A stretch of 25,154 nucleotides of DNA, taken from positions 1 to 25,154 of the IMG/VR virus record IMGVR_UViG_3300046008_000629; one strand, 5' to 3'. The position numbers and the translations under genes were made by a program. Below are positions 1,109-11,567 of this stretch, one piece after another; the stretch's first letter is position 1, and every line of letters begins with the position of its first letter. This stretch comes from a virus. Under the pieces are notes generated by a model that saw nothing but the letters and a program-made list of their open reading frames with translations, was not told the DNA's origin and did no database searches.

Positions 1109-1138
1109 CGCCATTCGTGTTGAATAATGGCGTTTTTT
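1109..1138 (+). terminator. Intrinsic terminator of the small-gene cluster
   Basis: A 7-bp GC-rich stem CGCCATT/AATGGCG (1109-1115 and 1126-1132) with a 10-nt loop is followed directly by six Ts. It closes the 313-1058 cluster and abuts the inverted repeat in front of the next gene. Confidence 0.8.
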
Positions 1139-1197
1139 ATTGTAGCGTTTCGATACACTATTGTTTATTATTGTAATTCATCGAAACGCTACAATAA
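1137..1197. promoter_or_regulatory. 18-bp perfect inverted repeat, likely operator of the winged-helix/J-domain gene
   Basis: TTATTGTAGCGTTTCGAT (1137-1154) is repeated exactly as its reverse complement at 1180-1197 across a 25-bp AT-rich spacer. The arm ends 8 bp before the ATG at 1206. The motif TATTGT also recurs in the spacer at 1159 and 1169, giving same-strand copies spaced 21 and 10 bp apart, about whole helical turns. This looks like a site for a dimeric regulator or an iteron-like initiator, more than a terminator, since no T-run follows. A convincing -35/-10 pair could not be fixed inside it. A rearranged copy of the two half-motifs occurs at 1760-1778. Confidence 0.55.
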
Positions 1198-1759: not shown

Positions 1760-1778
1760 TTTCGATAGACTACAATAA
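1760..1778. repeat. Rearranged copy of the upstream operator half-motifs
   Basis: TTTCGAT (1760-1766), a 3-bp gap and CTACAATAA (1770-1778) are both blocks of the 18-bp inverted repeat found upstream of the winged-helix/J-domain gene, here in a different mutual orientation. The site sits 5 bp before a putative -35 box for the C4-like RNA, so the same protein may bind both places. Confidence 0.4.
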
Positions 1779-1783
1779 AACTA

Positions 1784-1813
1784 TTTACATCGCCTTTGTT
1801 TTTAGGTTATGCT
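1784..1813 (+). promoter_or_regulatory. Putative promoter of the C4-like RNA and icd/ant leader
   Basis: TTTACA (1784-1789) and TATGCT (1808-1813) are separated by 18 bp and match four to five positions of the sigma-70 consensus boxes. Initiation near 1820 would give a terminated RNA of about 77 nt ending in the T-run at 1890-1896, which is close to the known length of P1 C4 RNA. The promoter is assigned by motif and spacing only. Confidence 0.45.
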
Positions 1814-1819
1814 TTTACC

Positions 1820-1896
1820 GCAGTCACGAGATTGCACTGGCTTGAACACCAGTTTTGTAAAGCGTTACCCGCACACGAAAGCCAAGCGGTTTTTTT
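1820..1896 (+). ncRNA. c4: C4-like antisense RNA controlling the antirepressor
   Basis: Two hairpins are visible: ACTGG/CCAGT (1836-1840, 1849-1853) and CCGC/GCGG (1869-1872, 1886-1889), the latter followed by seven Ts as an intrinsic terminator. Three segments are complementary to the downstream leader in strictly antiparallel order: 1842-1849 (TTGAACAC) with 1995-2002, 1856-1862 (TGTAAAG) with 1985-1991, and 1872-1878 (CACACGA) with 1939-1945. This is the layout of the a'/b' antisense segments of P1 and P7 C4 RNA, which block translation of icd and ant and so keep the antirepressor off in lysogens. The RNA, a small coupled leader gene and a BRO-N gene lie in the expected order. Exact ends are inferred. 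Confidence 0.68.
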
Positions 1897-2061
1897 ATGC
1901 CCCAGTTTTCACGATTCGCCGTATTTGCGGTAAAATCGTCGTGTGAATTGGAGTTGTTGAGAATATCCAATATCAACAGCAGCACTTTACAGCTGTGTTC
2001 AACCTCCAATTCACGCCACTTCGGTGGTATTTATGAACAAAATGTAAGGATTCAAAAATGA
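1897..2061 (+). CDS. Icd-like leader peptide gene coupled to the antirepressor
   Basis: An open frame from ATG at 1897 to TGA at 2059-2061 encodes 54 residues; the frame is open back to 1861, so the exact start is uncertain, and no good ribosome-binding site precedes 1897 (it directly follows the C4 terminator). A GGAG at 1950-1953 might serve a non-ATG start further in. The TGA overlaps the antirepressor ATG as ATGA. P1 icd likewise sits between C4 and ant and overlaps ant, and its translation is needed for ant expression; it also inhibits cell division. The peptide contains a His-Phe-Gly-Gly motif like that of short Icd/Ash-type phage proteins. All three C4-complementary segments fall within it. 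Role in coupling is well supported by layout; a division-inhibitor role is inference. Confidence 0.5.
   Translation: MPQFSRFAVFAVKSSCELELLRISNINSSTLQLCSTSNSRHFGGIYEQNVRIQK
1939..2027 (+). promoter_or_regulatory. Structured leader and antisense target upstream of ant
   Basis: GTGAATTGGAG (1943-1953) pairs perfectly with CTCCAATTCAC (2004-2014), an 11-bp stem around a loop holding two of the three C4-complementary segments. A separate CCAC-UUCG-GUGG hairpin (2016-2027) follows. When C4 RNA binds, the long stem would be opened or displaced, so the leader can take two mutually exclusive folds. This sits within the icd-like frame and 30 bp before the ant ATG. Confidence 0.55.
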
Positions 2062-2801
2062 TTATTTCAACATCAGCTTTAACCTTCAACGGCGTAACTC
2101 TTTCGCCAATTTCACATAAAAACCAAACTTGGTTGTCAGCCGCAGAATTATCTAAGGCTTTAGGATACGCAAAATCTGATGCCGTATCTCAGGTTTATGA
2201 CCGTAATTCTGATGAATTTAACGACAGTATGACGACTGTTTTACGAGACACTCAAATTGAGGGTCTGGGGAAAAATAGCGGTTTGCAGAAGGAGCAGCGC
2301 ATTTTCTCACTTCGTGGTTGCCACTTAATCGCCATGTTTGCAAAGACAGTAATTGCTAAACAATTTCGTGTTTGGGTTCTTGATATTTTGGACAAAGAAG
2401 TTAATCCAAAACCTTACGGCTTGAAAGAATTGCCAGTGATTTGTCCTTTTGCAAATCAAAGTCAATCTACACCTGTTACAGCACCTGCTGTCGAGCTAAT
2501 CACTAACCAACAACGGGTGAAACTTGAGGATATTGTTTCAAAAATTCTTTCATGTGTGCATTTTGAAAGCTCTGCAAAATGGAACATTTACGCATCAATT
2601 CGTGAAATGTATAAAATCGAATCAATTGATAAATTGCCAGCGCGGCATTTTGATGCCGTGCATAGCAATCTATCGGTTGTGTATGAATTGGCAAAACAAC
2701 ACCATAATCTGTTGTGCGAGGCGGATAAAAATTTCATTAAATCAGTAATGAAGAAACAGCAGTTTCAATTACCACCACAGCAATATGGCTTGTTAGCGTA
2801 A
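2058..2801 (+). CDS. ant: Phage antirepressor, BRO-N domain
   Basis: A 247-residue protein. Residues about 8-115 match the BRO-N fold of phage antirepressors: Trp-Leu-Ser-Ala-Ala-Glu-Leu near 25-31, Ala-Leu-Gly-Tyr at 34-37, Ser-Leu-Arg-Gly at 84-87 and a terminal helix with Phe-Arg-Val-Trp-Val-Leu at 103-108. The C-terminal part (about 145-215) resembles the ORF6C/Ant-type domain that often follows BRO-N. Antirepressors bind and inactivate the phage repressor or act as DNA-binding regulators, promoting lytic growth. AAGGA (2046-2050) lies 7 nt before the ATG, and the upstream icd-like frame overlaps by ATGA, so both independent and coupled initiation are possible. Control by the C4-like RNA is the likely regulation. 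The gene ends 1 bp before the convergent parB-like stop. Confidence 0.85.
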   Translation: MIISTSALTFNGVTLSPISHKNQTWLSAAELSKALGYAKSDAVSQVYDRNSDEFNDSMTTVLRDTQIEGLGKNSGLQKEQRIFSLRGCHLIAMFAKTVIAKQFRVWVLDILDKEVNPKPYGLKELPVICPFANQSQSTPVTAPAVELITNQQRVKLEDIVSKILSCVHFESSAKWNIYASIREMYKIESIDKLPARHFDAVHSNLSVVYELAKQHHNLLCEADKNFIKSVMKKQQFQLPPQQYGLLA

Positions 2802-9564: not shown

Positions 9565-10458
9565 TTATACAATCTCCTCAAGTTGCAGTGCTGTTTGATA
9601 GCCATTAACGTAAGGCAATTCAATCGGACTTAATGCCGAAAAATTGCACATAAACGTTTGGGCATAAAAATTCTTATCTTTTGTCATATTTAAATTGCCG
9701 ATGTATTCAGGCTTTGAAAACGCATACAGCAATTCGCCTGTTAAGCCAATTGACCTATAAGCGTCATAAAAACCGCTAAACGCCTCATCTTTTGAAAGAT
9801 GTTTTAGCACGCAAGATACAGTACGCATTTTCGGTTTTAAAAAGCCGTATTTTGTGTTGTTTGCACTGCGACGTATTTCACTCAAATCGACATAACCCTG
9901 GTTATAATCGCCGTAAGCGGGGTTGTTTTTTGGTTCGACGGTTCTGCCTAAAAAAATACGTCCGATTTCTAAAAAACCGTCTGTATTAACAGGATCAACC
10001 ACATCAATCACGATGGTCTTGCACATCTGATTACTTTCAGGATAGTACGTTGCAAGCGCGGTATAGCTTTTGCGCTGATTTTCTTCGACTGTTCCAAGAA
10101 ACCAATTGCTTGATTCAAACGGGACAACGCCAGTTTCAATAGGAAACAAAATCGGATAAGCGCGATATTCATCGCCGCTATCAAATCGCAATGTTCCCGA
10201 ATTTGAATAACCGCGAAAACGCACTTTCGCGTTTATCGAAAAATTATGATTTGCCAACGCTACGCAACCAATTTCACGTTCTTCTTGAGCAAGCGTGATT
10301 GTGATTGAAAAACTCGATGTGCTTGTGGTTCTCGCCACCCGTTGCAATACTGGGTTTTTGATATTATTAAGCGGTAATTTCGTTACAAATGTGCCTGTCG
10401 AGGCAAGTGTGCATTCAGAAATTCTGTTATCATAAGAAATAGAAATGTTACTAGCCAT
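9565..10458 (-). CDS. Distal tail structural protein
   Basis: A 297-residue protein, mainly beta, with conserved-looking segments Leu-Ala-Asn-His-Asn-Phe (about 67-72), Gly-Arg-Ile-Phe-Leu-Gly-Arg (about 170-176) and a late Ala-Phe-Ser-Lys-Pro-Glu-Tyr. It lies between the tail-tip protein and the fibre, where siphoviruses keep tail-tip or distal-tail components. Its start is unusual: the ATG at 10458 lies 8 nt inside the endonuclease gene, just 4 nt after a run of ten Gs that serves as the only ribosome-binding region, so translation may vary with the length of that run. No enzymatic motif is seen. Confidence 0.65.
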   Translation of the reverse strand: MASNISISYDNRISECTLASTGTFVTKLPLNNIKNPVLQRVARTTSTSSFSITITLAQEEREIGCVALANHNFSINAKVRFRGYSNSGTLRFDSGDEYRAYPILFPIETGVVPFESSNWFLGTVEENQRKSYTALATYYPESNQMCKTIVIDVVDPVNTDGFLEIGRIFLGRTVEPKNNPAYGDYNQGYVDLSEIRRSANNTKYGFLKPKMRTVSCVLKHLSKDEAFSGFYDAYRSIGLTGELLYAFSKPEYIGNLNMTKDKNFYAQTFMCNFSALSPIELPYVNGYQTALQLEEIV

Positions 10459-11449
10459 TCAACCCCCCCCCCTCTAAAAGTTTTTTTTGTATATTTGCAA
10501 TCCTTGTTGCTTTTCTTTTTTCGATTGTTTCTTTTGATGCAGGGGGTCTGTTTTTTGCCAACATTGACATTCTTTTTTTGACTTCTTCTGTATGTTTCTT
10601 TCCGACGTTTTTTCCCTTCATTGATTCGGATATTTTTAGTCTTGTTTCTTCTGAAGCTGAATAATTTGATTTAGCTCTTGATTCCTTCATTTTTTCACGC
10701 ACTTCTTTTGAAATCGGTGGTCTTGATTTTGCAATGATTGACATTTTTTCTTTTGTTTCATCGCTATGAACTCTACCACTTGCAGCTTTTGATATTTTTG
10801 CACGAGCTTCTGATGTGTGTTTTTTTCCTAAGCTATGTTTATTGCCCTTATTTGCCGATGCTATTTTTGCAATATGCTCTGGTGATAGTTTTTTTCCAGT
10901 GTTGGCTGCAATACATTTTTCCACTTGCTCTCGCGTCATTTTCCTACCGATGTTTGCATTCCGTATCTTATTTTTTGTTTCTTCAGAATGCTTTTTTCCC
11001 AACATATTTTTGTTTCCAATTTTTGCGTCTGATATTTTTTTGCAGGTTTCCTTGCTTCTGCTGCTTTGAATTTTTGACATTTTAATAATTGATTCTGGTG
11101 TGTGAATCCTTCCAGTTGCCATAGCCTTTCTTTTGGCTCTTGTTTCATCAGAACATACAATTCCACTTGCCCCTTCGCCGCCATCAGTTAAATTAACCAA
11201 CTTCACGCCACCTTGACGCAATGCCGCAATCATTCTGACTTCCAAATCAAAGGCATGTTGTTCTGAACGGCATAACATGGTTTTGACAATGATGTTTTCT
11301 TTCCCGTATTTCGCAACGATGTTTGTGTGATGTGGATTTGATTTTCTGTCAATAAATTTGATTCTTCTCGCGCATCCTTTTCCAACATAAAAAGGCGGTT
11401 TTCCAAAAATAGAATGTGTGTAGACGTAGTAATCTTGTGACTTTTTCAT
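10451..11449 (-). CDS. GIY-YIG homing endonuclease with NUMOD3-type repeats
   Basis: From ATG at 11449 (AGGG about 10 nt upstream) this is 332 residues. The frame is open to an ATG at 11563, but the extra 38 residues do not resemble coding sequence, so the later start is preferred. Near the new N-terminus Tyr-Val-Tyr (8-10) and Tyr-Val-Gly-Lys-Gly (21-25) form the GIY-YIG core, with a following Arg and a Glu within Phe-Asp-Leu-Glu-Val-Arg as likely catalytic residues. A Leu-Thr-Asp-Gly-Gly-Glu-Gly motif closes the nuclease. The rest is about ten short Lys/Arg-rich repeats (Gly-Lys-Lys-His, Ser-Glu-Glu-Thr), the NUMOD3 DNA-binding type. It is a selfish free-standing enzyme inserted between two tail genes. 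Confidence 0.85.
   Translation of the reverse strand: MKKSQDYYVYTHSIFGKPPFYVGKGCARRIKFIDRKSNPHHTNIVAKYGKENIIVKTMLCRSEQHAFDLEVRMIAALRQGGVKLVNLTDGGEGASGIVCSDETRAKRKAMATGRIHTPESIIKMSKIQSSRSKETCKKISDAKIGNKNMLGKKHSEETKNKIRNANIGRKMTREQVEKCIAANTGKKLSPEHIAKIASANKGNKHSLGKKHTSEARAKISKAASGRVHSDETKEKMSIIAKSRPPISKEVREKMKESRAKSNYSASEETRLKISESMKGKNVGKKHTEEVKKRMSMLAKNRPPASKETIEKRKATRIANIQKKLLEGGGLNG
10463..10472 (-). repeat. Poly-G tract (10 Gs on the minus strand)
   Basis: Ten C residues on the plus strand read as ten Gs on the minus strand, coding Gly-Gly-Gly near the endonuclease C-terminus and lying 4-13 nt before the ATG of the next tail gene. An A8 tract (10481-10488) lies just upstream on that strand. 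Tracts of this length are prone to polymerase slippage and also to sequencing error. Confidence 0.9.
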
Positions 11450-11567
11450 ATTGTGCAATCCCTGAATGAGGTGGATTATTGAATGATGTTTGGTGTGTGA
11501 AAATCGGTCATTCATTCCGACTTGTCGCCCGCTAAAGCTATTCACACAATTGATATTATACATTATT

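Follow-up and report, generated by a model that had tools for sequence, protein, structure and literature searches.

The stretch analysed here, called the window, comprises all 25,154 nucleotides of the IMG/VR record IMGVR_UViG_3300046008_000629. This 25-kb virus contig encodes tape-measure, head and minor-tail proteins, which is consistent with a long-tailed phage and agrees with the siphovirus origin proposed in a first-pass annotation made from the letters alone. The same annotation recognized a BRO-N gene at 2058-2801, and both protein resources concur, its product matching Pfam Bro-N at 37 bits (cut-off 25.6) and the anti-repressor Ant family phrog_5060 at E=4.7e-37. The closest homologue of this gene, ant, is found in locus L004 (91% identity, 363 nt of ant), the leader of which is unrelated to that of the window. 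Further upstream, 1206-1757 encodes a 183-aa protein with a C-terminal HPDKGG J-domain-like motif; it has no relatives in viral contigs and no confident family, and the upstream gene P0001, used as search bait, returned zero relatives. A homing-endonuclease-like gene (phrog_314), flanked by tail genes, lies on the minus strand at 10451-11563.

The region 5′ of ant is organized as follows, segment names being those of P1, where b′ is the hairpin-2 loop and a′ the single strand 3′ of hairpin 2.

1762-1777, plus strand: operator-like 16-mer TCGATAGACTACAATA, directly 5′ of the −35 box of the leader promoter
1784-1813, plus strand: sigma-70-like promoter TTTACA-18-TATGCT (consensus match only)
1820-1896, plus strand: leader RNA resembling isrK/c4-a1b1, two hairpins (weak isrK match, layout)
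1842-1849, plus strand: target a1, TTGAACAC, complementary to a′ at 1995-2002
1856-1862, plus strand: target b1, TGTAAAG, complementary to b′ at 1985-1991
1897-2061, plus strand: open frame of 54 codons, overlapping ant as ATGA
1942-2015, plus strand: C4-like antisense RNA (R2 covariance model, fold, covariation)
1943-1953/2004-2014, plus strand: its outer stem, 11 bp (folding)
1955-1960/1973-1978, plus strand: hairpin 1 stem (folding)
1961-1972, plus strand: conserved 12-nt loop of hairpin 1, GAATATCCAATA (folding, comparison)
1979-1983/1992-1996, plus strand: hairpin 2 stem, 8-nt loop (folding)
1985-1991, plus strand: antisense segment b′, CTTTACA, within the loop of hairpin 2 (detector, fold)
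1995-2002, plus strand: antisense segment a′, GTGTTCAA, linking hairpin 2 to the outer stem and largely single-stranded
2015-2028, plus strand: small hairpin with a TTCG loop, separating the antisense RNA from a2/b2 (folding)
2034-2039, plus strand: target a2, TGAACA, complementary to a′
2043-2049, plus strand: target b2, TGTAAGG, with five Watson-Crick pairs (2043-2047) plus a G-U extension
2058-2801, plus strand: ant, antirepressor with a BRO-N domain, 247 aa (Pfam, PHROGs)

Promoter, leader and the assignment of the C4 RNA

Transcription is predicted to start near 1820, the position at which the alignment to the isrK model also begins. Related copies of the 16-mer preceding the promoter occur at 1138-1153 (minus strand), 1169-1184 (minus strand) and 1181-1196 (plus strand); with at most three mismatches the window contains four matches, a number reached by none of 100 shuffles. 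By analogy, the 16-mer is an operator candidate comparable to P1 Oc4. Two further repeats are present: a near-perfect 22-nt inverted repeat bearing the operator-like 16-mer at 1133-1201, 5′ of the gene at 1206-1757, and a perfect 10-nt inverted repeat, TTTTACCGCA (1813-1822) and TGCGGTAAAA (1926-1935), located mostly 5′ of the predicted transcript start.

In the leader RNA, a1 lies mostly in the loop of the second hairpin and b1 is single-stranded. The Rfam isrK model (RF01394) aligns with 1820-1896 at 12.4 bits, well under its cut-off of 50, so that the leader is not an isrK member by that measure. Its putative terminator pairs CCGC with GCGG in a short stem around a 13-nt loop, and T7 follows. 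The terminated two-hairpin RNA described in the first-pass annotation is plausible by its fold, and its layout and terminator recur in seven related leaders (L137, L107, L114, L139, L142, L143 and L144); the generic terminator scan, however, did not call the terminator, which is still a doubtful, weak assignment.

The open frame at 1897-2061 ends in ATGA at the ant start, as first noticed, and has been taken for a coupled leader gene. That role is not supported: the frame begins directly 3′ of the T-run with no Shine-Dalgarno sequence before its ATG, has no family match in Pfam or PHROGs, and comparable frames are absent from most other loci. Nor does it occupy the place of icd, which follows the antisense RNA, whereas this frame extends across that RNA. 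A real parallel does exist in orf45 of Gifsy-1, a frame of 45 codons with the same ATGA overlap with the antirepressor gene and whose translation matters (PMC4825925), but in the window the frame is probably incidental.

The identity of the antisense RNA is clarified by the order of parts in relatives. In the P1 record the annotated order is a1, b1, c4, a2, b2, icd. In L004, an Rfam isrK match of 33.8 bits (cut-off 50) is followed by an above-threshold C4 match of 47.2 bits directly 5′ of ant. The isrK-C4 tandem is annotated in APSE-8 and detected by Rfam in Vibrio phage 1F53_PE003, PhiR26_1, P1 and Gifsy-1, and the order promoter, leader, C4, ribosome-binding site (RBS), ant, annotated in P1, is also found in Gifsy-1, APSE-8 and L004. 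It follows that the targets reside in the terminated upstream RNA, the leader, and that the C4 RNA is the gene-proximal element. In the window, the leader at ~1820-1896 is therefore the target or decoy RNA and the C4-like antisense RNA is 1942-2015. The first-pass annotation had rightly seen that a tailed phage here carries a C4 antirepressor switch like that of P1/P7, but had swapped the roles of its RNAs, taking the terminated RNA for the antisense partner.

The swapped arrangement, in which a terminated RNA at 1809-1885 would be the C4 antisense RNA and repress the downstream leader through three contacts, is very unlikely. The segments are indeed complementary, the fold makes a short, terminated two-hairpin RNA credible, and trans action on the downstream leader is documented for IsrK, its Gifsy-1 equivalent (PMC4825925). 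Yet P1 and all other related loci examined place the C4 fold and the C4 model matches on the downstream element, the effect of IsrK on anrP in trans is activation and not repression (PMC4825925), and the third of the three contacts is at chance level.

The C4-like element at 1942-2015 shows the same topology as 21 other loci. In all 22 folded loci the outer stem encloses two hairpins, the second of which has b′ in its loop, and a′ stays unpaired before the outer stem closes. The distance from the element to the ATG is 44 nt in the window, within a range of 34-83 nt among loci. A hairpin at the position of 2015-2028 also occurs in L107 and L114, and a TTCG-loop stem is visible in L137.

Four contacts between antisense and target segments

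The complementarities named in the first-pass annotation are all exact in the sequence, and the first two, a1:a′ and b1:b′, exceed chance jointly with a2 and b2, a second target at the ant Shine-Dalgarno sequence that had been overlooked. In P1 the second target is the functional one. Both a1/b1 upstream and a2/b2 downstream address the a′/b′ segments of the same RNA, b2 being short; a1 and b1 are offset by 14 nt, as in P1, and b2 (2043-2049) overlaps the Shine-Dalgarno sequence AAGGA at 2046-2050. The antirepressor gene follows downstream, as in a C4-ant immunity operon.

A blind detector seeking only antiparallel a1/b1, b′/a′ and a2/b2 segments recovered the annotated a1, b1, a2 and b2 of P1 exactly. 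It assigns the four-contact module of the window a score of 26, a value attained by 25 of 10,000 dinucleotide-shuffled leaders; adding the structural demands of a looped b′ and an unpaired a′ inside eight or more enclosing pairs lowers the frequency to 2/20,000. Negative results of the detector carry little weight, as it is blank for the clear C4 loci L008, L009, L010, L046 and L096. The L006 score, which derives from A/T runs, was discarded. L006, L012 and L013, all Acinetobacter phages, and many Arc-containing loci have no C4 module in the leader and were set aside.

Specificity of the contacts is also apparent when segments are exchanged between loci. For 19 of 20 loci, the structure-defined a′/b′ fit their own locus better than do the segments of 19 other loci. 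The own-fit sum of the window is 26, equalled or bettered by none of the 19 foreign segments (random window segments, 0.00085), though b2 taken alone is not significant, 10 of the 19 foreign segments matching it equally well. The exact pattern of the window b′-a′ segment has no match in viral contigs.

The third pairing, CACACGA at 1872-1878 with 1939-1945, had been read as an extra contact but stands at chance level: shuffled leaders average 1.26 7-mer pairs of this kind. Positions 1872-1878 belong to the terminator loop, where L137 has ACACG and the other related leaders have ACCCG, and no equivalent of the pairing is seen in L137 or L107.

A C4-like subtype outside Rfam

The Rfam C4 model (RF01695), which the first-pass annotation had named as a check, gives no match at E<=10, whether the whole window or 1740-2080 by itself is searched, the sub-threshold isrK match to the leader being all that Rfam returns there. 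The model (cut-off 45 bits) performs as expected on positive controls, with 68.8 bits for P1, 47.2 for L004 and 69 for Gifsy-1. R1, a model built from 14 canonical C4s, likewise has no plus-strand match at the element; this is a weak negative, R1 having been built without hairpin 2 because MAFFT misaligned that hairpin in alignment A3. By contrast, R2, a covariance model made from L107 and L114 only, with the window excluded, gives 1942-2015 a score of 45.4 bits (E=4.1e-10), against 11.6 bits for the runner-up in the window. L107 and L114 share with the window the 12-nt hairpin-1 loop, AAATATCCAATA in the former and GAATATCCAATA in the latter. The window is thereby a member of a C4-like subtype, defined by R2 and characterized by an AATAYCCAATA loop, that Rfam 15 does not recognize.

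Compensatory changes in the paired segments had also been proposed as a check, and L137 (LR797314, an uncultured freshwater phage) provides them in large part. It was found with the window leader by blastn, through a match at the terminator (E=3e-6), and independently by R2 (26.7 bits, E=1.1e-5). Its 72-nt element sits 5′ of a BRO-N antirepressor and keeps the window fold and the hairpin-2 stem GCAGC/GCTGT. Its a′ TGTATGAAG and b′ CTGTTGG differ from those of the window, and a1 CTTCATACA and b1 CCAACAG are re-matched to them, as is a2 over 6 nt; b2 follows only partly, over 4 nt.

R2 searches of genomes found L139, L142, L143, L144, L145, L146 and L140. Ten members of the subtype, compared pair by pair, have 94.9% of cells paired, and 16 of 20 pairs have changed on both sides; none of 500 shuffles reaches any of five measures, and slid controls lie far lower. 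It is extremely improbable that the leader is a decaying or chance structure devoid of regulatory function. Such a reading could draw on the failure of Rfam to recognize the element, on the weakness of b2 and on the single record; it is opposed by the match to an independent model at E=4e-10, by the compensatory changes in ten members and by the joint shuffle frequency of 2/20,000.

At E<=1, Rfam finds nothing at the element in L107, L137, L139, L142, L143, L144 or L145, a sub-threshold sRNA-Xcc1 match in L114, and sRNA-Xcc1 in L140. R2 also matches the sRNA-Xcc1-type locus L120 (22.2 bits, E=0.011). Judged from these sequence matches, the subtype thus appears to stand between C4 and sRNA-Xcc1. 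A pattern search for the terminator plus loop returned L114 as the sole match, and a DNA similarity search in plasmids returned nothing meaningful.

Two members have particular settings. In L145, a stand-alone C4-like element (1501-1577) lies directly 3′ of its own TTGACA/TATGCT promoter, and no antirepressor or matching targets are seen nearby; it is possibly a solo immunity RNA. In L146 (1501-2057, minus strand), a canonical isrK plus C4 is followed directly by a module of the window subtype and then by a KilA-N gene, and the a′ of this locus is identical to that of the window.

Proposed mechanism and related systems

Taken together, a C4-type antisense immunity module of an RNA subtype outside Rfam 15 very probably controls the BRO-N antirepressor. 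The promoter at 1784-1813 would give rise either to the short terminated leader (~1820-1896, carrying a1/b1) or to a read-through mRNA, from which RNase P would probably free the C4-like RNA (1942-2015), the route known from P1 (Hartmann et al. 1995, as related in PMC4919922 and PMC5320573). In the window, GTGAATT is not preceded by the GG described for the RNase P site of A. baumannii C4 (PMC5320573). The b′ loop and the a′ strand would then pair with b2 and a2, covering the ant Shine-Dalgarno sequence and blocking translation. With no antirepressor made to meet its presumed partner, lysogeny would hold, also against superinfecting relatives. The leader a1/b1 would compete for the same a′/b′ segments.

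The energetics qualify this scheme. The duplex of b′-a′ with the a2/b2 region amounts to −13.9 kcal/mol, while cofolding of the folded C4-like RNA with the RBS yields zero energy gain, so that the contact requires opening or kissing kinetics. The competition for a′/b′ is visible in cis, as the minimum-energy fold of the whole leader (1820-2070) pairs a1b1 with a′b′. This cis pairing matches ‘structure A’ of Gifsy-1 IsrK, which silences anrP (PMC4825925).

Such a fold also suggests an IsrK-like cis switch with no free C4 RNA acting, an unlikely but not negligible alternative. Here, a1b1:a′b′ pairing would keep ant silent, formation of the C4-like stem would be the active state, the short leader RNA would be an activator and the 54-codon frame would be translated. 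Besides the minimum-energy fold, it agrees with Gifsy-1, which has the same order of parts and compensatory mutants for a1:a′, and with the frame ending in ATGA at ant that the window and Gifsy-1 each possess. It leaves unexplained, however, a2/b2 at the Shine-Dalgarno sequence, targets found blind in P1, APSE-8 and others, and it relies on a frame that has no Shine-Dalgarno sequence of its own and is missing in most loci. The cis mode may operate together with the C4 mode, not instead of it.

The C4 mode of action itself is known from P1 and P7 (RF01695, RF03163), and the window shares with these systems the order a1, b1, C4, a2, b2, antirepressor, the spacing of a1 and b1, a long outer stem, two hairpins with b′ in the second loop, a single-stranded a′ and a second target at the RBS. 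It differs in sequence, lying outside both the Rfam and the canonical model, and in hairpin 1, which has the conserved 12-nt loop where P1/P7 have a tetraloop. It also has no icd gene, in keeping with a target that lies directly on the ant Shine-Dalgarno sequence. The subtype, in contrast to the kind, appears to be undescribed in Rfam 15.

Similar parts have been described under other names. The IsrK-orf45-anrP locus of the Salmonella prophage Gifsy-1 (RF01394) also has a terminated leader with a1 in a hairpin loop, a C4-fold element and an antirepressor, and within this locus (L016, 34131-34329) Rfam C4 (69 bits) and c4-a1b1 are both present. The published account presents IsrK as a trans-activator and also as a 30-nt cis switch (PMC4825925), and the term ‘C4 RNA’ was not found in the text of that paper. 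From their positions in the sequence, its compensatory mutants isrK G28/orf45 C162 and isrK G31/orf45 C159 appear to be a1:a′ contacts. AaHKsRNA82 (RF02900), at 2268-2348 in L008 and 2759-2839 in L046, occupies the isrK/a1b1 leader position 5′ of C4.

sRNA-Xcc1 (RF02221; Xanthomonas, Xylella) has the position of C4 upstream of BRO-N genes (L044, 2880-2968; L050, 2874-2962) and shows the four contacts in both loci; unlike that of the window, its hairpin 1 carries an insertion. It is treated in the literature as a virulence-linked small RNA (PMC2996969, PMC12189769). In L140 (865-952, minus strand), sRNA-Xcc1 with matching a1/b1 and a2/b2 precedes a gene unlike an antirepressor; switches of this type may control other genes. 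P22 sar (RF00262), also a small RNA repressing an antirepressor, differs in being antisense on the opposite strand, whereas in the window the RNA and ant share a strand; the BRO-N locus of SPN3UB has a sar match instead of C4.

Gifsy-1 IsrK, C4, c4-a1b1, AaHKsRNA82 and sRNA-Xcc1 thus appear to belong to modules of a single kind. Whether the window represents an undescribed C4 subtype bridging RF01695 and sRNA-Xcc1, all these RNAs forming one very widespread switch of phages in which the IsrK-type leader is a decoy that titrates C4 and turns the antirepressor on, is an evenly balanced proposition. In the open-licence literature no paper was found joining IsrK or sRNA-Xcc1 to C4 function, an absence that is not proof, and IsrK and c4 are entered as distinct RNAs in a review from 2025 (PMC12197685).

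The locus extends the antisense immunity principle of P1/P7 to phages and prophages missed by current RNA annotation, and the L107/L114 covariance model together with the four-contact rule offers a means to find such switches. With a′ and b′ diverging under a conserved fold, every variant would define an immunity specificity of its own. For IsrK, AaHKsRNA82 and sRNA-Xcc1, hitherto filed as unrelated small RNAs, a shared module suggests a function that is directly testable, namely titration of C4 by IsrK and control of an antirepressor by sRNA-Xcc1.
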